Part shown: one piece after another, positions 2,660 through 33,306 of the stretch
Position numbering within the stretch: position 1 is the first letter of the stretch
Layout: every line of letters begins with the position of its first letter
Origin: Clostridia bacterium
GTDB taxonomy: Bacteria > Bacillota > Clostridia > Christensenellales > Borkfalkiaceae
Direction of reading: 5' to 3'
Assembly (NCBI GenBank): GCA_017624285.1
Contig: JAGANI010000031.1
Span: forward strand, 1 to 33,439
DNA: 33,439 nucleotides
The notes under the pieces: generated by a model
Database searches by the model: none
The model's input: only the letters and a program-made list of their open reading frames with translations
What the model was told of the DNA's origin: nothing
Made by a program: the position numbers and the translations under genes

Positions 2660-2730
2660 GCAAAGTAACAAGGAATACTTTGCAGCATTTTCTGCTGTGT
2701 TCTATTCAGAAATTGAATCATAGGGAACAC
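2660..2730 (+). promoter_or_regulatory. Three-hairpin 5' leader of the GH63-like gene
   Basis: Three stems follow each other: GCAAAGTA/TACTTTGC (2660-2667, 2676-2683), CAGCA/TGCTG (2683-2687, 2693-2697) and GTGTTC/GAACAC (2697-2702, 2725-2730), the last with an inner ATTCA/TGAAT stem. No T run follows, so it is not a simple terminator, and it matches no riboswitch consensus that I know. A regulatory or mRNA-stabilising role is possible. Confidence 0.4.
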
Positions 2731-2773
2731 AAAAAGTAATTGGGAGCAACTAAGCAAAGATAGGAGAAGCATT

Positions 2774-4954
2774 ATGATAAAATACGGTGCATATGACCCG
2801 TTGTATCCAAATGGAATTGTTGCTGTGGGCGGCGATCAAGAAATTTTCGGCATTCGTTTTCTGACCGCTGACCGTTCGGATCACCATGTAGTCCGCGAAA
2901 AGGAGTTTCCTTTCTCAACGATTCGTATTCACTCCATTCAGGCTGAAGATCATATGGATTTTTCGTGGAAATACAAAGAGAAACAGGTGCGCCTGACATG
3001 GAAACGCTTGTCGGATGACACGGTTTTTGGACAGCTGGAATTTGACGAGGGGCTTGAAATTTACGCAGAAATGTATATGCCGTGGGAAAGCAGACATCCG
3101 TATACGGAGTGGCCGAATTTCACGGTGCAGGGGCCGAAGATTTTCGCCGGAGAACTCATCTCTCCCTATGGTATCGGTCAGAACAATGCGGTCATCTTTG
3201 CCACAGATAAAGAGCCGGAAGAAGCACTGGGGTACAATGACCGTATCCAGCAGTATGGGGATTTTCAGCAGCACGGAAAACTGCGCAACCTCGCTCCCGG
3301 AAGAATTTGGCAGGACATGGGCATCAGCTGGTATCTCGGTGCTCATTTTACCGAGAACTTTTCCTTTGTGCTCCAGACGGGCAGTGCCGCCGATTTCGCC
3401 TCCCGGAGCAGAGAGACATATGAATCCCTGCTAAGACTTGGAAAGGAATATACCGGAACCTATTCCCATGCGCTTACCGGAAGCGGTGATCTTTCGGCTG
3501 TCGGGGCTGCGGTTTCTTCGATTCTTCCCTTCAATACCATCTATAAAGCACATACGGGCCGCAGATACATTATGGTGGATCGTACATGGAATCGCTGTGA
3601 AGAAGGCTGGGGGTTTCAGTCTAACTGGGATACTTTTTTAAGCAGCTGGTCAGCTTCATGGACAGACCCCGTGCTCGCCAAGGAAAATATGCTTTCGGGA
3701 TACGACGCACAGCTTCCCGACGGAAAAATTCCCCTGCACATCCGTCCCGGAAAAGAGCACGCTGCCGAACCGCCGATTACTGCCGGACGCAGTCAGCATA
3801 TCGTGCAGGGACTTACTTTGTGGAACACATATCTGCACACAAAGGATAAGGAATGGGCAGACCACTGTTATCAATGTGCTAAAAAAGCGAACCGGTGGTG
3901 GTTCTCCGACAGAGGAGACGGACAAAAATACCGAGATCCGCTGGACTGGGGACTTCTAGGCTTTGGATATGATCCACAGGACGAGATGGGTATTTTAGGT
4001 GCGCAGATGCAGCCATACGTTGGAAAAGCGCAGTATGCCTACTTTGAAACATATGACGACAGTCCCCAGTGGACGACGGGTAAATATTTCAAATCTGTTG
4101 CAGGGCTTTCCGGCATCACGAAAGATGATGTTGACGACGAGTCGAAGTACATCGAGCAGTATCACACAGCAGATATATACACGCTGGAACGCTGCTGTCT
4201 GTACGCTGTGGACTGCGAGTGTCTGTCTAAACTGGCGAATGTGCTCGGATATGCGGAAGATGCCGCTGAGTTTGACGCCCGGTACAGACGGATCGCTAAG
4301 AACATCAACGAAAAAATGTGGTGCGAAGAGGACGGCTGTTACTACAATCTGAAATTCGACGGCAGTTTCTCCAAAAAACAATCCCCCGACTGCTTCATGC
4401 CTCTTATGACGGGGCTTGTACCGGACGACCGCAAAGAACGTCTGCTTTCCATTTTGAAAGATGAAAACAAGTTCTGGGGAGATTACATGATTCCGTCCAT
4501 TGCGAAGGATGACCCGGCATTCCCGGAACAGGCATACTGGAGAGGGCAAATCTGGCCGCCGATGGTTTTATGGACATATTTGGGTCTGAAGCGCAGCGGT
4601 GAATCCGGGCTGGCATGGGAATTTGCAGAGAAAATAGCTGCAATGCTGGCAAGAGAATGGCGGGAAAACGGCTTCACACCTGAAAATTACAATGCCTATA
4701 CAGGCAGATGCTCAGGCTCACAGCATTATAACTGGGGTGTGCTGATGGGACTGCCCATGCTTGAGGAGCTTGTAACCTTCACGGAAGACAGCCTTATTTT
4801 CGGCAATCCTTTAGCTCCCGACGGAACGGAACTGGTCAACATTCCGGCTGACGGCAAGTATTACAGCGTAAAAATCGAAAACGGCATGACAACCGTATGC
4901 TGTAACGGTGTATGTATTGCCAAAAATCACGGGTATGTTGAAATCGCTCGCTGA
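2774..4954 (+). CDS. GH63/MGH1-like (alpha/alpha)6-barrel glycoside hydrolase
   Basis: This protein of 726 residues has a beta-rich N-terminal domain (about 1-240) and a helical (alpha/alpha)6-barrel domain (about 250-690), the layout of GH63 and mannosylglycerate-hydrolase-like enzymes, with a short beta-type tail. Family landmarks are FQSNWDTFLSS with the likely general acid Asp at about 286, the WRGQIWPP motif at 589-596, and the TPENYN motif with the likely general base Glu at about 637. GH63 enzymes cleave alpha-glucosidic or alpha-mannosidic bonds with inversion; which sugar is cut here cannot be told. No signal peptide is present, so the enzyme is cytosolic. ATG 2774 has a ribosome site (TAGGAGAAG) seven to eight bases before it. 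Transcription is from tandem promoters and ends at the stem at 4988-5034. Trehalase (GH37) is a less likely alternative. Confidence 0.82.
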   Translation: MIKYGAYDPLYPNGIVAVGGDQEIFGIRFLTADRSDHHVVREKEFPFSTIRIHSIQAEDHMDFSWKYKEKQVRLTWKRLSDDTVFGQLEFDEGLEIYAEMYMPWESRHPYTEWPNFTVQGPKIFAGELISPYGIGQNNAVIFATDKEPEEALGYNDRIQQYGDFQQHGKLRNLAPGRIWQDMGISWYLGAHFTENFSFVLQTGSAADFASRSRETYESLLRLGKEYTGTYSHALTGSGDLSAVGAAVSSILPFNTIYKAHTGRRYIMVDRTWNRCEEGWGFQSNWDTFLSSWSASWTDPVLAKENMLSGYDAQLPDGKIPLHIRPGKEHAAEPPITAGRSQHIVQGLTLWNTYLHTKDKEWADHCYQCAKKANRWWFSDRGDGQKYRDPLDWGLLGFGYDPQDEMGILGAQMQPYVGKAQYAYFETYDDSPQWTTGKYFKSVAGLSGITKDDVDDESKYIEQYHTADIYTLERCCLYAVDCECLSKLANVLGYAEDAAEFDARYRRIAKNINEKMWCEEDGCYYNLKFDGSFSKKQSPDCFMPLMTGLVPDDRKERLLSILKDENKFWGDYMIPSIAKDDPAFPEQAYWRGQIWPPMVLWTYLGLKRSGESGLAWEFAEKIAAMLAREWRENGFTPENYNAYTGRCSGSQHYNWGVLMGLPMLEELVTFTEDSLIFGNPLAPDGTELVNIPADGKYYSVKIENGMTTVCCNGVCIAKNHGYVEIAR

Positions 4955-4987
4955 ACATTCGTACCCGGAATCATAAACAAATTATTG

Positions 4988-5034
4988 CGGCTGCTGCATT
5001 GGGAAATTCTTTCTGGATGCGACAGCCGTTTTTT
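4988..5034 (+). terminator. Rho-independent terminator after the GH63-like gene
   Basis: CGGCTG (4988-4993) pairs with CAGCCG (5023-5028), extended by GCAT/ATGC inside, and is followed by six T residues. Confidence 0.8.
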
Positions 5035-5066
5035 GCTAAAATTTTATATAATTAATCTTAATTTTA

Positions 5067-5095
5067 TTGTATTTTATTATTGTAAGTGGTATAAT
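5067..5095 (+). promoter_or_regulatory. Sigma-A promoter of the MscS gene
   Basis: TTGTAT (5067-5072), a 17-base spacer and TATAAT (5090-5095) lie 45 bases before the ATG at 5140, which has an AAAGGAG ribosome site. Confidence 0.7.
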
Positions 5096-5139
5096 TTATT
5101 AAAATCAATTTTTATATTATTAATAAAGGAGTTGTAAAT

Positions 5140-5958
5140 ATGGATTGGCAAGCTTTACTAGATACATTGATACAATGGGCAACAAATACCGGCGTAAAAA
5201 TAATTATTGCATTAATTATTATGCTTATTTCTTTCAAAATAATAAATTCTATTGCAAAAAAAATTGTTAAAAGATGTGAAAAAAAACACAAGGACAAGAC
5301 AATTTTTCAAACCCTTGCTTATGTGTTAAAAATCGGTCTTAAAATTGTCGTAGTCATTTGTTTAATTGGATATTTAGGCATAGACACTAGTGGATTGACC
5401 GCATTGATTGCATCCCTTGGCGTTGGCATAGGGTTAGCGGTAAACGGTGCGCTTTCTAACCTTGCCGGTGGTGTTTTAATTATTTTAACCAGACCTTTCA
5501 AGATTGATGATTATATAGAGGCGTTAGGCTATTCTGGAACGGTAGTTGATATTCACATTACCAATACTAAACTTTTAACGCCAGACAACAAAGTAATATA
5601 TCTACCTAATGGAACTCTTTCAAGTGCAGAAATAGTTAACTATTCTGAAAAAGATTTAAGACGTGTAGATTTTACGTTTTCAATCGGTTATGATGATGAT
5701 TTTACAAAGGCAAAACAAATTATAACGGATATATGCGAAGCACACGAACTTGTTTTAGACGACCCACAACCTTTTGTTAGGGTTAAAGAACACGGTTCTT
5801 CTAGTATAAATATAACGGCAAGAGCGTGGGTGAAAAACGCGGATTATTGGACCGTTTATTTTGATATTACTGAAGCCGTAAAATTAGCGTTTGATAAAGA
5901 AGGCATAGAAATTCCGTTCAATCAACTTGACGTTAACATAAAGAACAAAACGAATTAA
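5140..5958 (+). CDS. mscS: Small-conductance mechanosensitive channel, MscS family
   Basis: A 272-residue inner-membrane channel that opens under membrane tension and releases solutes during hypo-osmotic shock. Three membrane segments are visible: about 17-42, 60-82, and the pore helix at 88-115, which has the Gly/Ala-rich pattern (SLGVGIGLAVNGALSNLAGG) expected for the tension-gated TM3. The RPFKIDDYI sequence starts the MscS beta domain, followed by DNKVIYLPNG and a C-terminal alpha/beta domain to about 265. The length is that of the compact MscS class. It is monocistronic with its own promoter and lies at the start of the AT-rich part of the window: TTA and other AT-rich codons suddenly dominate here compared with the upstream gene. 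Confidence 0.95.
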   Translation: MDWQALLDTLIQWATNTGVKIIIALIIMLISFKIINSIAKKIVKRCEKKHKDKTIFQTLAYVLKIGLKIVVVICLIGYLGIDTSGLTALIASLGVGIGLAVNGALSNLAGGVLIILTRPFKIDDYIEALGYSGTVVDIHITNTKLLTPDNKVIYLPNGTLSSAEIVNYSEKDLRRVDFTFSIGYDDDFTKAKQIITDICEAHELVLDDPQPFVRVKEHGSSSINITARAWVKNADYWTVYFDITEAVKLAFDKEGIEIPFNQLDVNIKNKTN

Positions 5959-6118
5959 ACGTTGATTTAATAAAATTGCAAGCACATTTGAATTTAATAC
6001 ATTATTTGAATTGCAATATTGATAACTGATTATGAAATACTCTATTTTAATTGATTGCGAGTAGCCAAGTAATGCACTAAAACCACAACGGAATAATACT
6101 AAAAACTTTTAAAAAATT
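5959..6118. other. AT-rich spacer without recognised content
   Basis: Between the MscS stop and the T-box promoter I see no open reading frame with a ribosome site, no convincing terminator and no structured RNA. Confidence 0.5.
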
Positions 6119-6119
6119 A

Positions 6120-6148
6120 TTGACAAAGAAAAAATATAGGAATATAAT
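6120..6148 (+). promoter_or_regulatory. Consensus sigma-A promoter of the T-box transcript
   Basis: Perfect TTGACA (6120-6125) and TATAAT (6143-6148) boxes are separated by exactly 17 bases, predicting a start near 6155, just before the T-box leader. Confidence 0.9.
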
Positions 6149-6171
6149 TCAAAAAAAGTATATAAAAGCTA

Positions 6172-6430
6172 TGACGAAGACGGCCGAAAATGGATTATCA
6201 CAGAGAGCTGATGTATGGTGCGAATCAGCATAATCGTTTTTAATGGCTTATCACTTCCGAGCTGGAAGCCCCAAAGATAATTTCTAGTAGACGCTTCCCG
6301 TGGGTGCTACGTTAGTGCATAGGAGTTGTTGGACTCTGAAGGTGGTAGAGTAAATCTACAATTTGAGTGGTACCGCGAGTATATTATACCCGTCTCAAAG
6401 AGAAATCTTGAGGCGGGTTTTTGTTTTTTT
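6172..6430 (+). promoter_or_regulatory. T-box riboswitch leader, probably reading tRNA-Ile
   Basis: The leader has the full T-box layout. Stem I carries the GA motif (ATGACGAAG at 6180), a GATTAT/ATAATC helix, the AGAGAG bulge, and a GCTGAT/ATCAGC helix closing a GGTGCGA apical region. Stem III is GTAGA/TCTAC (6345-6359). The T-box signature is GAGTGGTACCGCG (6365-6377). The antiterminator pairs TTTGAG (6362-6367) with CTCAAA (6394-6399), which competes with the terminator. The best specifier reading is ATC (6250-6252) followed by A and CTTCC, meaning isoleucine. The T in TGGT (6368-6371) would pair with discriminator A73 of tRNA-Ile. Class and position are firm; the amino acid is an inference. 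Confidence 0.92.
6388..6430 (+). terminator. Regulated terminator of the T-box
   Basis: ACCCGTCTCAA (6388-6398) pairs with TTGAGGCGGGT (6408-6418), with one G-U pair, followed by a T-rich tail. Its left arm contains the bases that the antiterminator needs, so it forms when the tRNA is charged. Confidence 0.92.
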
Positions 6431-6460
6431 AAGTAAATTTAAAGGAATAGTGGGATTATT

Positions 6461-7900
6461 ATGAAAAAAACGTACGTAACAAAAATGCCTAATCATATTG
6501 GTGCTTTTTTAAAAGCAAGTAAATGTTTATCTGAACTAGGGATTAACATTACTAGGGTCAGTTATAATAAGGCGGTTGACTCTCATACGCTTTTTATTGA
6601 AGTGGACGGAGACGAAACACAGTTTGAAAAGGCTAATGAAAAACTAAAAGCAATAGGATATCTTTCAAACGAAAATGAGAATACCAAAATTGTACTACTT
6701 GAATTCCGTTTAAAAGATAAACCTGGTAGCGTAACTAGCGTTTTAGAGTTAATCAGTAAATTTAATTTTAATATTTCTTATATAAGCTCGCAAGAAAACG
6801 GTAGCGATTATCAATATTTTAAAATGGGCTTATACGTCAATGATACAAACGCTTTAACTGAGTTTTTAGCGCAAGCCGAAAAACTTTGCGAAGTTAAAAT
6901 AATTGATTATAACAAAACTGAAAAAGTTTTTGATAATAGCATCTTTTATAATTCTTACGTAGACGGACTAGTTAAAACAATGGGGCTTTCTAACAAAAAG
7001 AAGGAGGACCTTTTAGTTAACGTTAACTTAGCAATGCAAACCCTTGACGAACAAGGGCTTTCCCCCTACAAAACGTTTGATAGCATAAGTAAATTTGCAG
7101 ACCTTTTAGCCCAAAGTAAAAAAGACAACTTTAACCCAAGAATTACCGTACACAATATAACCGAAAAGACGAAAATCACCCTAATAGAACCAGATTGTGG
7201 TAGTAATACTGCTATTATAGAGAGCGATGGCGAGAGGGTTTTTGTTGATTCTGGCTATACTTGCTATAAAAATGAAATGCTTGCGCTTATTAAAAAAATA
7301 CTACCCGACTTTAAAACAAAAAAAGAAACGTTAATCATTACACATGCGGACGTCGACCACGTAGGATTACTTAACGAATTTGACGAAGTTATCGTTAGTC
7401 AACGCAGTTTTGAAAGTTTAAGTGCAGAAATTGATAAAACAGCTGGTTTTAGAGAGAGAAATTGTTTACATTTGCCATACGTAAACATCTGCAAAATTTT
7501 AACTGATTATGAAACGGCAGAAAAAAGCAAGCTTTGCGCGTTATGGAATAAATCCAGCTTAACAGCGCCAATAGAGCAAATAGGTTTTTATACTGTTGGT
7601 GAACTTAATTTTGAAGTTTACGAAGGCAAAGGAGGACATTTGCCTGGAGAAATATTGTTAATTGACTTTGAAAATAAAATTGCTTTTACCGGCGACGTGT
7701 TTATAAACCTTAACGATTTAACCAAAAAACAAGCCGAATATAATCAATATGCGCCTATTTTGATGACTTCAGTAGATACCGATGCAAAACTCTGTTCAAA
7801 AGAACGTTCGGCTTTTTTACAAAGACTAGGCGTGGGAACGTGGAATATTTTTGGAGGGCACGGCGGAAAAAAAGAATATTTAGCGCAAACGACTAAATAA
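6461..7900 (+). CDS. Tandem ACT domains fused to a metallo-beta-lactamase-fold hydrolase
   Basis: The 479-residue protein has an N-terminal ACT domain (about 3-68, with PNHIGAFLKASKCLSELGIN), a second ACT domain (about 77-150, with LKDKPGSVTSVLELISKFN), a helical linker (155-225) and an MBL-fold domain (about 228-475). Metal ligands are present: HADVDHVG with His295, Asp297, Asp299 and His300, then probably His393, Asp412 (FTGDV) and His467 (GGHGG). HxDxDH in place of HxHxDH is the pattern known from ComEC-type MBL domains. ACT domains usually bind amino acids and control an attached enzyme. With a T-box in front, probably for isoleucine, a role in branched-chain amino-acid supply or sensing is inferred; the reaction is unknown. 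It has no signal peptide or membrane segment. The ATG at 6461 follows AAAGGA. It is the only gene on this transcript, ending at the stem at 7973. Confidence 0.85.
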   Translation: MKKTYVTKMPNHIGAFLKASKCLSELGINITRVSYNKAVDSHTLFIEVDGDETQFEKANEKLKAIGYLSNENENTKIVLLEFRLKDKPGSVTSVLELISKFNFNISYISSQENGSDYQYFKMGLYVNDTNALTEFLAQAEKLCEVKIIDYNKTEKVFDNSIFYNSYVDGLVKTMGLSNKKKEDLLVNVNLAMQTLDEQGLSPYKTFDSISKFADLLAQSKKDNFNPRITVHNITEKTKITLIEPDCGSNTAIIESDGERVFVDSGYTCYKNEMLALIKKILPDFKTKKETLIITHADVDHVGLLNEFDEVIVSQRSFESLSAEIDKTAGFRERNCLHLPYVNICKILTDYETAEKSKLCALWNKSSLTAPIEQIGFYTVGELNFEVYEGKGGHLPGEILLIDFENKIAFTGDVFINLNDLTKKQAEYNQYAPILMTSVDTDAKLCSKERSAFLQRLGVGTWNIFGGHGGKKEYLAQTTK

Positions 7901-7972
7901 AAAGTACGTGGACGAAAAATTATTTAACGCGCTAAGCCAAAATATACTTGCTTTTATTATAAAACGTTATTT

Positions 7973-8002
7973 AAAAGGATAGGTTGCCCCTATCCTTTTT
8001 TT
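7973..8002 (+). terminator. Terminator after the ACT-MBL gene
   Basis: AAAAGGATAGG (7973-7983) pairs with CCTATCCTTTT (7989-7999) and continues into a T run. The same stem sequence recurs at 16803-16830. Confidence 0.85.
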
Positions 8003-8076
8003 GTTTGAATTAGAGCGGATTTTAAAACATCGTTAAAAAAGCAATCACCTGCCTTTTTTATTTACAAAAACAAAAA

Positions 8077-8091
8077 TCTACTAGTAGTAGA
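8077..8091. promoter_or_regulatory. 15-base perfect palindrome, candidate operator of the XRE-PfkB operon
   Basis: TCTACTA-G-TAGTAGA is a perfect inverted repeat 44 bases upstream of the -35 box of the sugar operon. XRE-type regulators bind palindromes of this size, and the first gene of the operon codes for one, so autoregulation is an attractive inference. Confidence 0.45.
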
Positions 8092-8135
8092 CTAATTTAT
8101 TTTTTGTTGCCTTAAATAGTCCTACAAAAAGTCGG

Positions 8136-8164
8136 TTGACAGCAGGCATAAAATAAAATATAAT
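8136..8164 (+). promoter_or_regulatory. Consensus sigma-A promoter of the kinase-isomerase-dehydrogenase operon
   Basis: TTGACA (8136-8141) and TATAAT (8159-8164) are perfect and 17 bases apart, 32 bases before the ATG at 8197. Confidence 0.9.
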
Positions 8165-8196
8165 TAATTTGTAAACGTACCGTAAAGGAGTTTTTT

Positions 8197-9423
8197 ATGG
8201 CTAAAACTAAAACAGAGTTTAATATTGGCGCAACTATTGCAAGATTACGTAAAAAACAAGGATTAACGCAAAACCAACTTGCAAAAATGTTATGTATTAG
8301 CAATAAAACGGTAAGCAAGTGGGAGCGTTGTGCTGGTTACCCAGAAATAACCCAGTTATTAAGCCTATCCCGCATACTTGGAACTACGGTTGACACGCTT
8401 ATGATGAGCGAACGACACGGAATAACGATTGCAGGCTGTTTAGTAGACGATCGTATAAAGATAATTGACTCTTACCCTAAAATGCACATGCAATCCACCA
8501 TACAATCTATTACGCACGGTGTTGGTGGTGGCGTACCAAACGTTGGCATAAATTTAGCAAAAATAGACCGTAGTATTACGGTAAACGCCGTTGGTAGAGT
8601 TGGTAACGACGTAAACGGCAGATATTTGATTGATGAACTCCGTCAAAATGGTATTGACGTAAGCGGTGTGATAACTTCAGAAACCGCAGGGACAAGTTTT
8701 ACCGACGTTATGACGGTTGGCAGTACTGGTGAACGTACTTTTTTCCACTACCGTGGCGCTAATGCAGAGTTTAACCCTAGCGACGTAGACATAAGTTTAT
8801 TAGATTGCAAAATGATACACTTAGCGTACGTTTTGATGCTAGACGCTTTAGATGAAGCCGACCCCGAATACGGCACGGTTATGGCAAAGTTTTTAAAAGA
8901 TTTAAAAGACGCTGGCATAACGACTTCAATAGACGTGGTAAGCGATAGCCGTGGGTTGTTTGCTGAAAAGGTAATCCCTGCGCTACGATATACCGATAAC
9001 GCTTTTATGAACGAGATTGAAGTTTCGGGCGTGTCAGGGATACCCTCTCGTGATGAAAACGGCAAACTTAATTTAGAAAATATTAAAAAATCGATGGAAA
9101 TAGTGATGGCAAACGGTGTAAGAGAACGTGTCATAGTACATTGTCCCGAAGCGGGCTTTTGCTTAAATCGGTCGGGTACGTATACCGTTGTTCCATCAAT
9201 TAAGTTACCAAAAGGCTACATAAAAGGCTCGGTTGGCGCGGGCGACGCATTTTGCGCTGGATGCCTATATGCAATTTATAAAGGGCTTGACGATGAAAGA
9301 ATTTTATCTTTTGCTTCGGGCGCTGCTTGTTGTAACTTATCTGCATTTGACTCGGTAAGCGGTATGCAAAATAAAGACTATATTTTTGATTTTATCGCTA
9401 AGGCTGAGCGTGTAAAACTTTAA
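8197..9423 (+). CDS. XRE-type HTH regulator fused to a PfkB-family sugar kinase
   Basis: The 408-residue product joins two modules. Residues 8-64 form an XRE/Cro helix-turn-helix (GLTQNQLAKML, then the recognition helix SNKTVSKWE). Residues 74-405 form a ribokinase/PfkB kinase: the sugar-binding GGGVPNVG motif at about 110-117 and the ATP/anion-hole motif GSVGAGDAF with catalytic Asp350. Both modules look intact, so the protein may phosphorylate a sugar (probably a ketose at C1, from its context) and also repress or activate its operon in response to that sugar. HTH-PfkB fusions are known, for example winged-HTH types in enterobacteria; the XRE version is less familiar to me. ATG 8197 has a strong AAAGGAG site. 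No terminator separates it from the isomerase and dehydrogenase genes, which use the same kind of ribosome site. Confidence 0.9.
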   Translation: MAKTKTEFNIGATIARLRKKQGLTQNQLAKMLCISNKTVSKWERCAGYPEITQLLSLSRILGTTVDTLMMSERHGITIAGCLVDDRIKIIDSYPKMHMQSTIQSITHGVGGGVPNVGINLAKIDRSITVNAVGRVGNDVNGRYLIDELRQNGIDVSGVITSETAGTSFTDVMTVGSTGERTFFHYRGANAEFNPSDVDISLLDCKMIHLAYVLMLDALDEADPEYGTVMAKFLKDLKDAGITTSIDVVSDSRGLFAEKVIPALRYTDNAFMNEIEVSGVSGIPSRDENGKLNLENIKKSMEIVMANGVRERVIVHCPEAGFCLNRSGTYTVVPSIKLPKGYIKGSVGAGDAFCAGCLYAIYKGLDDERILSFASGAACCNLSAFDSVSGMQNKDYIFDFIAKAERVKL

Positions 9424-9515
9424 TTTTTAATTACCCCTGCCCTATTTTACTTGCCGTAAATTAGAAAATACATTTATCAAACTAATTATAAAATTATCCG
9501 TAAAGGAGCGTTAAA

Positions 9516-10994
9516 ATGTTAATAAACAATATACCGATAGTAAAACCTGCAATTATTGCAGTTAGTCGCGATAACTTCCCCCGTGCGCTTTCTGAAAACA
9601 GAAGAAAGGCAGTAGTTGGTGCTTGCAAAAAGCATGATATTGATATTTACGAAAGCAATATCGTAGTAGAAACCGAAAAGCAAGCGTATAGCGCCGTTGA
9701 AGAAGTTAAAAAAGCGGGCTGTAACGCCCTTGTAGTATACTTGGGTAACTTTGGCCCAGAAACACCAGAAACGTTAATAGCAAAGGCTTTTGACGGCCCT
9801 GTTATGTACGTTGGCGCTGCAGAAGAAGGCGACCTTATCGCTGGACGTGGCGATGCGTATTGTGGTATGCTTAACGCTAGTTACAACTTAGCGCTTAGAA
9901 ATATACGCGCTTTTATCCCCACCCGTCCCGTAGGTATGCCTGACGAAGTCGCTAAAAATATAGAAGAATTTATCCCCTTAGCAAGGGCTGTAATCGGGCT
10001 TAAAAACTTAAAGATAATTTCTTTTGGTCCACGCCCGAGAGATTTTCTCGCATGTAACGCGCCTATAAAACGCCTTTATGATTTTGACGTTGAAATTGAA
10101 GAAAACTCTGAACTAGATTTATTAGAATCTTACCGTTTACACGATGGCGATGCGCGCATTGAGGCGATTGCCAAAGATATGATGTGTGAACTTGGCGCTA
10201 ACAATATGCACCCTGGTATAATAAACCGCCTTGCCCAGTACGAACTTACCCTTTTAGACTGGATTGAAAACCATCGCGATGGCAAAACCTACGTAGCGAT
10301 GGCAAATAAATGCTGGCCAGCCTTCCAAACGCAATTTGGTTTCGTGCCGTGTTACGTCAACTCACGCTTGACTATGCGTGGAATACCCGTCGCTTGTGAG
10401 GTTGATATTTGGGGCGCATTAAGTGAATATATTGCAACCTGTATAACACAAGACGCCGTAACGCTACTTGATATAAACAATACCGTACCCAACGATATTT
10501 ACGATAACGATATAAAGGGCAAATTTGCGTTTAATAAGGACGACCTATTTATGGGCTTCCATTGTGGCAATACGCCGTCTTGCAAACTTGTAAACCCCAA
10601 ATTGCTACACCAACGCATTATGTATAACTCGCTTGAATTAGGTAAAGAACCAGATATAACACGTGGTACGCTAGAAGGCGATTTAATACCTGGGGATTTA
10701 ACCATTTTCCGTCTGCAAAGTACGGCTGATGCTAAATTACGCGCATATATTGCGCAGGGTGAAGCCTTACCCGTAGCGACGCGTTCTTTTGGCTCGATAG
10801 GTATAATAGGAATACAAGAAATGGCGCGTTTTTACCGTTACGAGCTTATCGAAAATAACTTTCCACACCACTGCGCAGTTGCTTTTAAGCACGTCGGCAA
10901 AACCCTTTACGACCTTTTTAAATATCTTGGCGTAAAAGAAATAGGCTTTAACCGTCCTAAGGGTGATCGCTACCCAACGGAAAACCCCTTTTAA
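9516..10994 (+). CDS. L-fucose/L-arabinose isomerase-family protein
   Basis: The 492-residue protein has the layout of the FucI/AraA superfamily: two Rossmann-like N-terminal domains (about 1-170 and 170-350) and a C-terminal beta domain. Likely metal-binding and catalytic residues are Glu295 in ACEVDIWGALSEY, Asp319 in LLDINNT, His349 in GFHCGNTPSC, and a His in NFPHHCAV near the end. Such enzymes interconvert aldoses and ketoses with Mn2+. It is not a close match to classical FucI (about 590 residues) or AraA, so it belongs to the broader isomerase-like group and the sugar is open. It is 92 bases after the kinase gene with no terminator between, and 31 bases before the dehydrogenase gene. 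Isomerase followed by kinase would yield a ketose phosphate. Confidence 0.85.
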   Translation: MLINNIPIVKPAIIAVSRDNFPRALSENRRKAVVGACKKHDIDIYESNIVVETEKQAYSAVEEVKKAGCNALVVYLGNFGPETPETLIAKAFDGPVMYVGAAEEGDLIAGRGDAYCGMLNASYNLALRNIRAFIPTRPVGMPDEVAKNIEEFIPLARAVIGLKNLKIISFGPRPRDFLACNAPIKRLYDFDVEIEENSELDLLESYRLHDGDARIEAIAKDMMCELGANNMHPGIINRLAQYELTLLDWIENHRDGKTYVAMANKCWPAFQTQFGFVPCYVNSRLTMRGIPVACEVDIWGALSEYIATCITQDAVTLLDINNTVPNDIYDNDIKGKFAFNKDDLFMGFHCGNTPSCKLVNPKLLHQRIMYNSLELGKEPDITRGTLEGDLIPGDLTIFRLQSTADAKLRAYIAQGEALPVATRSFGSIGIIGIQEMARFYRYELIENNFPHHCAVAFKHVGKTLYDLFKYLGVKEIGFNRPKGDRYPTENPF

Positions 10995-11025
10995 TTCCAT
11001 ACACTAAATTTTAAGGAGAATTATA

Positions 11026-12279
11026 ATGAAAACGAAAGCAATCCGCCTACACGGAAAAATGGATTTACGTTTAGACGAGTTTGAACTTCCACCACTTGGT
11101 GAAAACGAAATTTTGGTTAATTTTATTACAGATTCGCTTTGCGCTTCTACTTATAAAGCAGTAAAACTAGGTGAAGACCATAAACGCGTACCACCAAACG
11201 TATCCGAAGTACCAGTAATAGTTGGGCACGAAATGTGTGGCGTTATAGCAAAAACGGGCGCTAACGTTGATAAAAAATGGAAGATAGGTCAAAAAGTTAC
11301 CATACAAACGGCTTTAAAGCTAGAGTCTGGTTACGACCCGGGTTACTCTTACCCGTATATCGGTGGCGCTTCTACGTACGCTATCGTACCAGAACTGGTT
11401 TTAGAACGTAACTGTCTTATACCTTACGATGGTGAAGGGTATTTTAAATGTTCAATGGTAGAACCCCTTGCCTGCTGTTACCGTGGGTTTTTAGGATGTT
11501 ACCATACCGATTACACCACCTACACGCGTACGGACGGCACTAAAAAAGGTGGCAAATTAGCAATTTTAGGTGGCGCAGGCCCGATGGGACTTGGTTGTGT
11601 AGAACTTGCCTATGGCTTTGCCAAAACTGCGCAAGTGGTGGTAACGGGGCGCAATAAAGAACGCCTTGACGGCGCTTCAAAAAAATGCCCGCCTGAATAC
11701 GCCAAACAAAAAGGTTGCGACCTTACCTATTTTTGCACTACCGAATACGACGACCCCGTTGCTAAGTTAATTGAACTTTCCGACGGTGGTTTTGACGACG
11801 TTTTTGTAATGGCGCCTTCGGCAGAACTATTTCAAATGGCTGAAAAAATCTGTCGTGAGGACGGGTGTATCAACTTTTTTGCAGGTCCACCACAACACGA
11901 TTTACAAGGCTCAATGAATTTATACCGTATCCATTACGACGGCATACACGTACTTGGCACAGGTGGCAGTATCCCACAAGACATGCGCGACGTTTTAGCA
12001 TTGATAGAAAGTAACGCTATCCGTCCACAAGCGCTTATATCGCATATTTTGGGTATGAACGCTTACGTTGATACGATGATGGCTATGGCTACGCCCAGCG
12101 GTGCAAAAAAACTGTGCTATACGGGGCTTGATATTCCGCTTATCGCCATAGACGAGTTAAAAGATTGGGGCAAAAAAGACCCGTTATATAATGAACTTTA
12201 TAAGATAGTAAAAGCAAACGGTGGGCTTTGGTGTGTAGAGGCTGAAGAATATTTACTTAAACACGCCCCTAAAATTTAA
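11026..12279 (+). CDS. Zinc-dependent medium-chain dehydrogenase, L-sorbose-1-phosphate reductase-like
   Basis: A 417-residue MDR-family NAD(P)-dependent dehydrogenase. Catalytic zinc ligands are visible as Cys39 (DSLCAS), His68-Glu69 (VGHEMCG) and Glu146 (MVEPLACC). The Rossmann nucleotide loop is GGAGPMG at 182-188. The structural zinc lobe with four cysteines is lacking. Phrases such as CASTYKA, GYSYPYIGGASTY and LQGSMNLYRIHY resemble SorE-type L-sorbose-1-phosphate reductases, which reduce a ketose 1-phosphate to a hexitol phosphate. As the last gene of the operon it would act on the product of the isomerase and kinase; the exact substrate is an inference. The ribosome site is AAGGAG, and a terminator follows at 12314. 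Confidence 0.85.
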   Translation: MKTKAIRLHGKMDLRLDEFELPPLGENEILVNFITDSLCASTYKAVKLGEDHKRVPPNVSEVPVIVGHEMCGVIAKTGANVDKKWKIGQKVTIQTALKLESGYDPGYSYPYIGGASTYAIVPELVLERNCLIPYDGEGYFKCSMVEPLACCYRGFLGCYHTDYTTYTRTDGTKKGGKLAILGGAGPMGLGCVELAYGFAKTAQVVVTGRNKERLDGASKKCPPEYAKQKGCDLTYFCTTEYDDPVAKLIELSDGGFDDVFVMAPSAELFQMAEKICREDGCINFFAGPPQHDLQGSMNLYRIHYDGIHVLGTGGSIPQDMRDVLALIESNAIRPQALISHILGMNAYVDTMMAMATPSGAKKLCYTGLDIPLIAIDELKDWGKKDPLYNELYKIVKANGGLWCVEAEEYLLKHAPKI

Positions 12280-28992: not shown

Positions 28993-29184
28993 ATTTGAAA
29001 TTTTTACCCTTAAATTTTTTTATTAAATTTGCAAAAAAAAGTATCATACTGCGTTCAAAAATAAAAAAGTCGTGTTATGCTAATTATAGAAAGGGCAACC
29101 TTTTTAAACTGCAGTTTGGCTTTAGAAAAGACGTTTTTTAAAGCAGGTGGACGCACCGCTACAATATTATATAAGGAGAAAATT

Positions 29185-32100
29185 ATGAAAACTAACGAAA
29201 CCGTAGCGGACTATACCACTACAAATTTACCTGATGCAAACGCATCAACAACTTTACCTAAAAAAGATAACTTAAACGAACCCGCCACAAACGCGACTTG
29301 TGAAAATTTATCTACAAGCGCTTATAACTTAAGCGAACCCACAGCGCAAGCTAGCGAAACTTCAACCACCACGTCTGACGTTTCCGTCACGCCCCCTAAA
29401 GCAATTAAACAATTGCCAATTTCGGGCGGTATCGCGCAAATCAATTTATCAACCGCCGACTATTCCTTTGTTTTTGATGCTATTGATAAAAATAAAACAT
29501 TGATTGATAGACCTATACAATTTATCTACGGCGCACAGGACTTTAGAAGTTATTATGGGTACAATTCTCGATTCAATATGTGTGAACATATTGAATTTGA
29601 ACTAGATGGTACAACGCCATACAGGTACGTCGACTCTTTTGCTAACATCCACTATTTCTTCAATAAAAACGAAAATGATGAAAATGAAGAACCCGAATAT
29701 ATAATTAAAGGTAGTAATCAATATATTAGTACTTTGCCTCCTGCAACTATTGCAGACAATACAGCATATCTTAGTTTTATTAATTCTGGAGACACAAATG
29801 ATAATCAAATAAATAGGCATGAACCTATTTGTTGGCTAGTTAACGACTCTCAATATAAAGGCTTTAATATAGATGGTTATTTATGCGTTACATTAGATTT
29901 ATATGGCAAATTTGAATTTATATACCTTGATGAAAAAAACAGAATTACAAAAATAACAAGTTCAAATAATGGCTCACTTTATTTTAATTATATCAATAGT
30001 GAATACGGCATACTTACAAAGATAAGTTCTGGTAACACCACGGGAGAATATGATGCAAACGGCAATGAAAAGCGAACTTACGAAACGTATTTTCACTTCG
30101 GCACCAACGACATCCCTATAAGAATAAATTATAGCGATACCGAACATATAAGGTTTACCCACGGAGCGGGTGGCATTAATATTGTAAGGATTGACACTTC
30201 TAACGAGCTTTTTACCACGTTTAGTTATTCTAATGGTAAACTTGTTAATATTTCCAACTATTCTGGCGCAAATGAAATTCCTTTAATTTCTTATACAAAT
30301 ACTTTGCTATCTTCTTACGATATTGAATACGGCACAAACTCAGCAACAATCACAGATCACAATGGCAATAAAGAATATTATGAGTTTGACAACGATGAAA
30401 AACTCACTGCACTTTACGTAGAAGAAAATAACAAGGTTACGTCAGCAAAGCAGTACGGCAAGATTGATGCTACTCCAAAGTTAAAAAGATATGAATACGT
30501 AAAAATAGCTAAAGACTGTATCCTTAATCTTACCCCAAAATCATCTTTTACAATGTCCGATAATGATTCGATTATTATTAAGCATTATTACGATAAAAAC
30601 AACCTTTTAACGGAAAAAGTAAAAGAAAATATTGATTATGCTTACTGTAATGAAGAAAATGAAAGCTTTAAAGTGACGGCAAAGGCGTGTACCACTTATA
30701 CGCGAGGACATGTTAAAGACTTAACCAGAGAAGTAGAGGAGGTTACATTAACAAAGCAAAATCAAGTACTAAAAACTTTTAAAAATATCAAACAATATTT
30801 GTACACAACCGATAATAAATTACAACAAGTAGGATACTTTACTAGTGGTATCAACACGACCCCTAACGATATCGATTATGAACCCCCTATTGTTAAAATG
30901 TTTACATACGATGGATACGGTTATTTAGTGCTTGAAAGAACTTTCCCTGCGATATACCATAATGAAGCAGTAATTCCTGACCAAACTCATGGAGGTTACA
31001 TAAAGCAATTGGAATATAATGGCAATGGTAAAATATTAAAAGAATATCACGAAGGTGGCAAAAAATATACTTCATATAGTTATAAAGCAAATACTGGTTT
31101 AGTAAGTAAAGTAACGTACCCTAATGGTGTTATTAAGCAATTTACATATGATAATAATGGTAATATTATTACAATCAAGTATAAAAAAGGAAGTACTGTT
31201 TTAAAAACTTATAATTTAACTTATGCTCTTGGTGAAATCATATCCGTTTCTGATGGTGTAAAAACTGTAAATTATACATACGATGCAAAACGACGTATCA
31301 AAAAAATATCTTTATCAGATACTTATTTCGTCGAATACAATTATGAAGAATATTTTGCTACTAGCCCCGAAAATGTTTTAGAAAAATATTATAAAACCAC
31401 TATGAAAAACTTCAGGGGCGAAGAATTTATTCAAGAATATAATAAATCAAAAACTCATTTGAAAGAATATTATAAAGCAAATTCAAATGCTGAAGCTGTA
31501 TGCACTTCTGAAAAACTTTTTGATAGATTTGGTAACGTAACTACTATTATTGATAATGTTTTAGATGAAACCGAAAACTTTACTTATAATGATAACCATC
31601 AACTTATTTCATATAGAAATAGTTTATTGGAAAATTATAAATACAATAAATATGGTTATTTAAGCAAAACAAATGGTGATATTAACACTACCTATACTTA
31701 TAAAGATAGTGGAAATCATGCTTTACAAAAATTTACAGCACATGACTATGAAACTGTATACATTATAGATGACGTACATAGATTATCATCTAAGTACGTA
31801 CAATATCGAGGCACCCCTTCTGGATTTGTTTTACAAGATAAAGTAGACTATCTTAAAGGTAGCGCATACAACTCTACAAATTATTTTACTAATATTATTT
31901 CTCAAATTTCAGAAGTGATTTCTTATGATTCTTCAACCAACACTTATAACACTAGCCCAATAATTACACACGAATATGACGACTTTAATAGACCCGTAAA
32001 AACAATCCACAAAAACACCGAGTCCTATCGTATCACTTATGATTATCTAGACCGTGTTGTTAGAGAAGATAACCTGTCATTTAATAAATCGTACGTCTTT

Positions 32101-33306
32101 GCCTACGATAACGATAACAACCTAGTTTCTAAAAAGACCTACGCATACACAACGGCTACTATTGATGATACAACTACCCCGCTTGAAACTTTAACTTACA
32201 CCTATACAAACGGTATATTAACTAAAATTAATAATCAAGACGTTATTTACAATATACCCCATTTACCTACCAACATTAATGGCAAACAAATTACTTGGGG
32301 TAAAGACACGTTAATATCTTCTTACGATGGTAACACGTTTACGTATGACTGTTTAAACCGCTTAAGGTCAATCAACAATAAGGATATAATATATGCACCT
32401 GATGGTAATATTTACGATTATGGCTCGCTTAGTTTTTCTTACGATAAAAATGGTCTCTATTCTTTATCAAATGGTCAACAATATTTCTATCGTATAGACG
32501 GCTTAGGTAATATTTATGAAATTGTTGACAGAAATGGCAATACCGTTGTACAATATAAATATGATAGTTGGGGTAATCATTTGGTTTTAGATGGTAATGG
32601 CAACGCCATTACTGACCAAAACCATATTGGGCATAAAAACCCGTTTAGATTTAAAGGCTTATTTTATAATAAAGAAAGTAATCTTTATATTTGCAATAAT
32701 GGTTTTTATTCTCCAGAAATTGGCTTTTTTATACAACCAAACACCATATCTTCGTTTAACTTCCAAAATATTGATGGTTTTAACTGGTATAAGTTTGCCC
32801 ATAATAGTCCAATTAGTCTTTCATATGGCCGTGCTGTCTCTAATGGAACTATAACTACCGATACATTTGACCTAAATAATGTATTTGTTAAGAGTATATC
32901 TAAGAAGATCCATTGGGAAAGTAATTGGTTTGTTGTTACTAAACCTGAGTTCTTTAAGTTATCAAAAGAAGGGTTCGTAATTGTTAGTTTGGGATTATCA
33001 ATATACAAAGGAAATTTGTATTTTGATGAAGCAGAAACAAACTCTTTATATTTTTCTGCTGGCAATATTGGTGTTTATGCAGGTATAAATTATAAAAAAG
33101 GAATTGGTATTGAGGCAAATGCAAGTGTTTTATCAATAGGATATGATGGAAGATTTATTGGTGTGCAAGTTGACTTTTTAACTGCAAAATTCTTCTTTAC
33201 CTACAAGAATGGGGAATTGAAAATTGACCCAGGATTTGGATTGGTAGATTTTGGTATTTCAATTAACATTGTCGCTATTATAGATTATTTGAAAGGGAAT
33301 GGTTGA
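29185..33306 (+). CDS. RHS/YD-repeat protein with variable C-terminal tip, probable polymorphic toxin
   Basis: ATG 29185 is preferred: it has an AAGGAG ribosome site, whereas the frame's earlier ATG at 29077 has none. The 1,373-residue product starts with about 80 Thr/Ser/Asn/Ala-rich residues and no recognisable signal peptide. Residues 85-550 look like the N-terminal part of Firmicute RHS proteins; YD-type repeats (FTYDNNGNI, YTYDAKRRI, ITYDYLDRV, FTYDCLNRL and others) run to about 1,130, and the RHS core with NPFRFKGLFYNKESNLYIC and GFYSPEIGFFIQP spans about 1,152-1,205. After this lies a tip of about 160 residues of unknown type, Gly/Phe/Tyr-rich. RHS shells enclose a released toxin tip in known systems. 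Its stop overlaps a small downstream gene, the usual place of an immunity gene. Base use is more AT-rich than in neighbouring genes. Confidence 0.87.
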   Translation: MKTNETVADYTTTNLPDANASTTLPKKDNLNEPATNATCENLSTSAYNLSEPTAQASETSTTTSDVSVTPPKAIKQLPISGGIAQINLSTADYSFVFDAIDKNKTLIDRPIQFIYGAQDFRSYYGYNSRFNMCEHIEFELDGTTPYRYVDSFANIHYFFNKNENDENEEPEYIIKGSNQYISTLPPATIADNTAYLSFINSGDTNDNQINRHEPICWLVNDSQYKGFNIDGYLCVTLDLYGKFEFIYLDEKNRITKITSSNNGSLYFNYINSEYGILTKISSGNTTGEYDANGNEKRTYETYFHFGTNDIPIRINYSDTEHIRFTHGAGGINIVRIDTSNELFTTFSYSNGKLVNISNYSGANEIPLISYTNTLLSSYDIEYGTNSATITDHNGNKEYYEFDNDEKLTALYVEENNKVTSAKQYGKIDATPKLKRYEYVKIAKDCILNLTPKSSFTMSDNDSIIIKHYYDKNNLLTEKVKENIDYAYCNEENESFKVTAKACTTYTRGHVKDLTREVEEVTLTKQNQVLKTFKNIKQYLYTTDNKLQQVGYFTSGINTTPNDIDYEPPIVKMFTYDGYGYLVLERTFPAIYHNEAVIPDQTHGGYIKQLEYNGNGKILKEYHEGGKKYTSYSYKANTGLVSKVTYPNGVIKQFTYDNNGNIITIKYKKGSTVLKTYNLTYALGEIISVSDGVKTVNYTYDAKRRIKKISLSDTYFVEYNYEEYFATSPENVLEKYYKTTMKNFRGEEFIQEYNKSKTHLKEYYKANSNAEAVCTSEKLFDRFGNVTTIIDNVLDETENFTYNDNHQLISYRNSLLENYKYNKYGYLSKTNGDINTTYTYKDSGNHALQKFTAHDYETVYIIDDVHRLSSKYVQYRGTPSGFVLQDKVDYLKGSAYNSTNYFTNIISQISEVISYDSSTNTYNTSPIITHEYDDFNRPVKTIHKNTESYRITYDYLDRVVREDNLSFNKSYVFAYDNDNNLVSKKTYAYTTATIDDTTTPLETLTYTYTNGILTKINNQDVIYNIPHLPTNINGKQITWGKDTLISSYDGNTFTYDCLNRLRSINNKDIIYAPDGNIYDYGSLSFSYDKNGLYSLSNGQQYFYRIDGLGNIYEIVDRNGNTVVQYKYDSWGNHLVLDGNGNAITDQNHIGHKNPFRFKGLFYNKESNLYICNNGFYSPEIGFFIQPNTISSFNFQNIDGFNWYKFAHNSPISLSYGRAVSNGTITTDTFDLNNVFVKSISKKIHWESNWFVVTKPEFFKLSKEGFVIVSLGLSIYKGNLYFDEAETNSLYFSAGNIGVYAGINYKKGIGIEANASVLSIGYDGRFIGVQVDFLTAKFFFTYKNGELKIDPGFGLVDFGISINIVAIIDYLKGNG

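Follow-up and report, generated by a model that had tools for sequence, protein, structure and literature searches.

Rumen and hindgut microbes need isobutyrate, isovalerate and 2-methylbutyrate, isoacids that they carboxylate to amino acids, which is why ruminant feed is supplemented with them. The synthesis of isoleucine and leucine from 2-methylbutyrate and isovalerate is established in rumen organisms (PMC10658910; PMC7356843). MbcS selectively activates 2-methylbutyrate and isobutyrate (PMC10026030), and a biosynthetic role has been ascribed to an AMP-forming ligase next to IOR (PMC13285125). No description of how bacteria sense their need for isoacids was found in the literature examined. 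Here, we analyzed a 33,439-nucleotide stretch of DNA (the window) from a member of the Borkfalkiaceae (GCA_017624285.1, contig JAGANI010000031.1). In it, a T-box leader precedes an open frame (6461 to 7900, plus strand) that encodes a protein of 479 amino acids with two ACT domains and an MBL-fold domain (ACT-ACT-MBL) and has homologues in 37 of the 391 Clostridia genomes sampled.

A sigma-70 promoter (TTGACA-17-TATAAT; 6120 to 6148), which matches the consensus at 12 of 12 positions, lies upstream of the T-box leader (6162 to 6400), both on the plus strand. The leader aligned with the whole RF00230 model (positions 1 to 219) at 92.2 bits, with an E value of 7.9e-21 obtained in a 651-nucleotide search of the leader region. 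This score is 0.8 bit below the Rfam gathering score of 93, so that a default scan of the window lists no T-box. Alignment to the RF00230 consensus placed the specifier codon ATC (Ile; 6250 to 6252, plus strand) in the specifier loop of Stem I and, together with the sequence itself, located the T-box sequence TGGTACCGCG (6368 to 6377, plus strand), the bulge of which pairs with the tRNA acceptor end. An intrinsic terminator hairpin with a T-run (6388 to 6431, plus strand; −18.6 kcal/mol in ViennaRNA) is mutually exclusive with the antiterminator, and RNA folding and sequence inspection found the TGGT bulge and the antiterminator and terminator arms all present. A further intrinsic terminator 3′ of the gene (7973 to 7999, plus strand) ends the one-gene unit. 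The complete T-box leader that the sequence-only reading had claimed is thus confirmed. Judged by its sequence, the leader with its specifier and terminator/antiterminator is an isoleucine-specific transcriptional T-box, for which tRNA-dependent antitermination is predicted. It shares with RF00230 T-boxes the whole-model match, the ATC specifier, the bulge and the alternative hairpins, and differs in its score just short of gathering and in the gene family that it regulates; the ACT-ACT-MBL family was not found in the T-box survey PMC2494555. Across the whole genome of the window, seven T-boxes were counted, this leader included.

The N-terminal part of the protein consists of ACT domain 1 (residues 1 to 70; 6461 to 6670, plus strand) and ACT domain 2 (residues 76 to 150; 6686 to 6910, plus strand), the latter resembling AHAS small subunits. 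The window protein matched Pfam ACT (PF01842) with an E value of 8.4e-11 and 41.9 bits against a cut-off of 27, the best stretch being residues 79 to 142, and ACT_AHAS_ss with an E value of 1.3e-7. ACT domain 1 gave a weak Pfam signal in the window protein and is the top ACT stretch of the homologue L142 (residues 8 to 57). The full-length fold was poor at the N terminus (pLDDT of 45 to 66 in places); refolding residues 1 to 155 with 56 alignment rows gave a better model with two ACT-like units (mean pLDDT, 85.9). These profiles and the predicted structure agree on the two ACT domains originally proposed and contradict the possibility that residues 1 to 150 are something else. Among 34 aligned homologues, Pfam matched ACT in 32 and Lactamase_B in 33. 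A three-helix linker (residues 159 to 218; 6935 to 7114, plus strand), seen in the AlphaFold2 model and strongly conserved, follows the ACT pair.

In structure comparisons, ACT domain 2 superposed on AHAS regulatory subunits with Z scores of 10 to 11 (2f1f: Z = 11.2, root mean square deviation [rmsd] of 1.6 Å over 74 residues), and the predicted ACT units resemble Val- and Ile-binding ACT structures. The likeness to the AHAS small subunit (IlvH/IlvN) is that of the second ACT domain: the whole protein stayed below the cut-offs of the AHAS small-subunit NCBIfam models (23.7 versus 128 and 15.9 versus 119 bits), and no AHAS partner is implied. Two ACT domains in tandem are likewise found in BT0572 (2f06), which superposes on both ACT domains (TM score of 0.54, rmsd of 4.7), and in the tandem-ACT protein (ACT_8, PF19571) of the IOR/PaaK cluster in the same genome, the profile of which matched residues 10 to 138 (E = 7.2e-6). 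Unlike the window protein, the latter stands alone (about 142 amino acids, no hydrolase), and it adjoins aromatic rather than branched-chain enzymes; ACT_8 itself was absent from the Pfam matches of the window protein up to an E value of 10. Because the tandem ACT domains resemble this protein and the AHAS regulators, a branched-chain amino acid (BCAA) is the natural guess for a ligand, and by analogy the domains probably bind isoleucine or another BCAA.

The C-terminal part (residues 221 to 479; 7121 to 7897, plus strand) adopts an MBL fold. Pfam Lactamase_B (PF00753) matched the full protein with an E value of 1.4e-8 and 35.4 bits (cut-off, 22.7) and this stretch with an E value of 2.2e-9, and the closest MBL structures scored Z values of about 16 to 17. 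Among the matches listed, TTHA1429 and BcII reached Z values of about 17 over about 195 residues and flavodiiron proteins 16.4; PqsE (Z = 16.1, rmsd of 2.9 over 201 residues) was no better than the beta-lactamases. The HxDxDH motif (H295, D297, D299 and H300; 7343 to 7360, plus strand) and the further predicted ligands H393 (7637 to 7639), D412 (7694 to 7696) and H467 (7859 to 7861), all on the plus strand, were unchanged in 99 of 99 distinct homologues. With all seven ligands invariant, the metal site is very probably active, and the metal hydrolase fold of the earlier interpretation holds. The pocket residues R331, Y340 and A431 are strongly conserved as well. The fold and the full ligand set are common to BcII, TTHA1429 and PqsE; these have HxHxDH in place of HxDxDH, share 11 to 19% identity with the window protein and lack its ACT domains and helical linker.

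ComEC carries an HxDxDH motif, and the sequence-only reading had assigned the domain to the ComEC type on this ground. The motif is indeed present at residues 295 to 300. A special link to ComEC did not emerge: no ComEC or Competence family was among the Pfam and NCBIfam matches of the window protein up to an E value of 10, the competence channel domain that accompanies the C-terminal MBL domain of ComEC/Rec2 is not present, and the nearest folds listed are generic MBLs. The absence of a ComEC structure from the 50 structure matches listed carries no weight in this respect. Kinship with ComEC, which would be based on the motif, was ranked low. As the earlier interpretation had supposed, no characterized enzyme of the ACT-ACT-MBL architecture was found in PDB or NCBIfam: no PDB chain spans both halves, the window protein reached no NCBIfam cut-off, and a literature search for ACT plus MBL returned nothing relevant. 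As far as the searched databases and literature show, ACT-ACT-MBL is a real, conserved and not previously characterized family, a new combination of known kinds of components. PHROGs contained no match to the window protein; therefore, a phage origin is not indicated.

A genome scan yielded 80 ACT-ACT-MBL loci, mostly from herbivore gut metagenomes. The distribution is patchy among close relatives, with carriers in 7 of 101 genomes searched, a count that includes the window's genome and a genome outside its family but within the order. On the same strand as the gene, and usually just upstream of it, 43 of 106 distinct loci contain a gene for an XRE-HTH-cupin-AMP-forming acyl-CoA ligase, and all copies of this ligase (49/49) are on the gene's strand. 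Members of the MaoC family, which acts on acyl-CoA, neighbor the gene in 17 loci. A MaoC-family hot-dog protein is encoded directly upstream in L033 (1100 to 1540), L065 (3509 to 3949), L072 (3538 to 3969) and L076 (3573 to 4004); in L076, the two frames share four bases, which suggests translational coupling.

The T-box is conserved upstream of the homologues or their operons, where it stands directly before the gene, before the preceding ligase or before a ligase just downstream. Of the T-boxes that precede the gene or its partner ligase, 38 have the specifier ATC (Ile), and the exceptions are Val or Leu; for TATCCC-type leaders, the specifier was read according to the Rfam alignment, which gives ATC. 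The non-Ile specifiers fit the neighboring genes. A GTA (Val) T-box precedes the second ligase in L075 and L156, and the T-box of L033 reads CTC (Leu) and is followed by MaoC, ACT-ACT-MBL, a LeuA-like gene and another ligase. The L156 locus belongs to a genome of the window's family and carries, on one strand, an Ile T-box, ligase, ACT-ACT-MBL, the Val T-box, ligase, a P-loop protein, VOR alpha, VOR beta and the edge of an IlvE-like aminotransferase. T-box control of a single gene, as first described, thus applies to the window and a few relatives, while most linked homologues have the order T-box, ligase gene and then this gene. In the tree, the solo arrangement (the window, L008, L009 and L010) is nested among ligase-linked relatives; therefore, the separation of the gene from the ligase looks derived. 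The T-box of the window is 67% identical to that of the separated ligase in the same genome.

For about 40% of the loci, no linkage was seen within the locus sequence. The divergent members in G124, G298, G388, G104, G186, G031 and G082 are solo and without an adjoining T-box or ligase, and such T-box-free members are spread over several Clostridia families. Because these members are unlinked and four of their genomes (G124, G298, G388 and G031) carry IlvC, the original role of the family may be broader than the isoleucine pathway. Judged by these unlinked members, the family is older or broader than this role. Homologues without a T-box therefore exist, and none of them has a known unrelated function.

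Contig C1 of the window's genome contains a Leu T-box with a LeuA-like gene and a ligase, an Ile T-box with a ligase, and a Val T-box with a ligase, BCAT, P-loop protein and VOR; the ACT-ACT-MBL gene has its own Ile T-box and lies alone, apart from the ligase. VorB and BCAT scored above their NCBIfam cut-offs, and the best NCBIfam model for the ligase domain was MbcS (E = 3.1e-131, below cut-off). IlvC and IlvD were not found in this genome, which is 83% complete, so that an assembly gap is possible; 14 of 14 control genomes were positive in both searches. This gut bacterium thus seems to lack the usual route to isoleucine. The ligase occurs in 36 of 37 carriers compared to 165 of 354 other Clostridia (Fisher P = 1.7e-10, shared ancestry ignored), a count that takes in related ligases without the XRE-cupin part. 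IlvC is rarer in carriers (6/37) than in the others (201/354; Fisher P = 2.6e-6, shared ancestry ignored). Operon linkage, ligase co-occurrence, the likeness to MbcS, the lack of IlvC and IlvD and the known use of isoacids in the rumen together give good support for placing the gene in a T-box-controlled route from isoacids to BCAAs, a placement that we consider likely.

We propose that the gene is an isoleucine starvation-induced part of BCAA synthesis from branched fatty acids and that it encodes a BCAA-gated acyl-CoA (thioester) hydrolase; taken as a whole, we regard this reading as evenly balanced. A scavenged branched-chain fatty acid would be converted to its acyl-CoA by the AMP-forming ligase, reductively carboxylated by the ferredoxin oxidoreductase (VOR) and transaminated by BCAT. 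When charged tRNA-Ile is low, uncharged tRNA-Ile would bind the leader through the ATC specifier and the TGGT bulge, the antiterminator would form, and the gene would be transcribed. Binding of the end product (isoleucine or another BCAA) to the tandem ACT domains would then gate the MBL domain, which would hydrolyze a pathway thioester, e.g., 2-methylbutyryl-CoA or a relative, and would thereby trim flux and CoA sequestration as isoleucine recovers. The MBL fold hosts many reactions, and a thioester is preferred because the neighboring enzymes act on acyl-CoA; from these neighbors, we infer a thioester hydrolase under end-product gating, an assignment that is tentative and has somewhat less than an even chance. 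A point against it is that co-induction of a thioesterase with the ligase would be futile without tight gating. The earlier proposal of a two-level sensor is plausible and is supported by the Ile-specific T-box and by an ACT domain 2 that is nearest to the BCAA-binding ACT domains of AHAS small subunits. In its full form, two-tier isoleucine control, in which a tRNA-Ile T-box and BCAA-sensing ACT domains act on a metal thioester hydrolase that sets the conversion of 2-methylbutyrate to isoleucine, is possible, and we put it forward with reserve.

Within the same pathway, the MBL domain might instead cleave an ester, lactone, phosphoester or amide to supply or recycle a precursor of the isoleucine branch, the ACT domains providing ordinary feedback. 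The conserved pocket (R331, Y340 and A431) means a specific substrate, which the fold does not name; the neighbors (acyl-CoA ligase, MaoC and 2-oxoacid oxidoreductase) work on acyl-CoA and favor a thioester, and we regard another bond as rather doubtful. A further departure would be a generic amino-acid-responsive housekeeping hydrolase that gained T-box control in some lineages and has incidental operon neighbors, in line with the solo, T-box-free members in several families and the 40% or so of loci without linkage. A ligase in 43 of 106 loci, always on the same strand, its near-constant co-occurrence (36/37) and the repeated Ile T-boxes speak against incidental neighbors, and this explanation seems improbable to us.

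Two other readings were ranked low together with ComEC kinship. Diiron members of the MBL fold have Glu in place of the second His of HxHxDH, and a carboxylate also replaces this His in the window protein, which could suggest a diiron MBL of the ODP/flavodiiron type that senses oxygen or redox state and either protects the oxygen-sensitive reductive carboxylation or reports on it. The ODP model (PF19583) aligns with residues 248 to 424 at 22.8 bits, just below its cut-off of 27.2, and flavodiiron proteins are among the close folds listed (Z = 16.4). The carboxylate, however, is Asp: HxDxDH, not HxExDH, is found in 99 of 99 homologues. Moreover, the flavodoxin partner domain is absent, zinc-type MBLs score equally in the structure comparison, and oxygen sensing would leave the isoleucine T-box and the ACT domains without reason, so that we consider an oxygen sensor very improbable. 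Hardly credible to us is a degradative operon, in which BCAAs would be oxidized to branched fatty acids and the protein would serve amino acid catabolism. Enzymes of the BCAT and VOR types also take part in oxidative amino acid fermentation (PMC13285125). Against this direction, T-boxes turn genes on during shortage of the amino acid, the AMP-forming ligases are similar to MbcS, an enzyme of salvage, and IlvC and IlvD are missing from the genome.

If true, two-tier control would make the window protein, to our knowledge, the first amino-acid-gated MBL enzyme and would place it in an isoacid-to-BCAA regulon of herbivore-gut Clostridia that is controlled by T-boxes for Ile, Val and Leu. Through the T-boxes, every ligase branch is linked to one particular amino acid (Ile, Val, Leu and, for PaaK, Phe), and ACT-ACT-MBL stands out as a regulated component of the Ile branch; this supplies concrete substrates and ligands for testing. 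Sets of T-boxes and ligases also offer a genome-based annotation of isoacid-dependent bacteria.

Several further arrangements were observed. Phe-specifier (TTC) T-boxes precede phenylacetate-CoA ligase (PaaK)-like genes in L029 (8061 to 8337), L066 (8043 to 8322) and L049 (7392 to 7673), which suggests T-box-controlled phenylalanine synthesis from phenylacetate; a literature search for T-box plus phenylacetate-CoA ligase returned nothing relevant. In L102 (G000:C1:19001-37000; 3940 to 6243, 6606 to 8873 and 9309 to 11762, minus strand), three acyl-CoA ligases carry additional regulatory or unrelated modules: two have an XRE-HTH and a cupin, and the third has a xylose-isomerase-like TIM barrel. 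Every one of these fusion genes is either controlled by a T-box or located behind one (Val, Ile, Leu). An XRE-cupin module fused to a metabolic enzyme is itself unusual. In L107 (G000:C9:8001-18000; 2695 to 4572, minus strand), an IorB-like domain is fused to a PaaK-like AMP-ligase in one 625-amino-acid protein, within a cluster of PaaK, IorA, tandem ACT and aminotransferase genes.

Elsewhere in the window, an XRE-type HTH is fused to a PfkB-family sugar kinase (8197 to 9423) behind its own 12/12 promoter (8136 to 8164). It is followed by genes for a fucose-isomerase-like protein (9516 to 10994) and a dehydrogenase-like protein (11026 to 12279), and the three may form a self-regulated sugar pathway. 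Near the end of the contig, a large protein of 1409 amino acids (29077 to 33306) has an RHS/YD-repeat-looking sequence.
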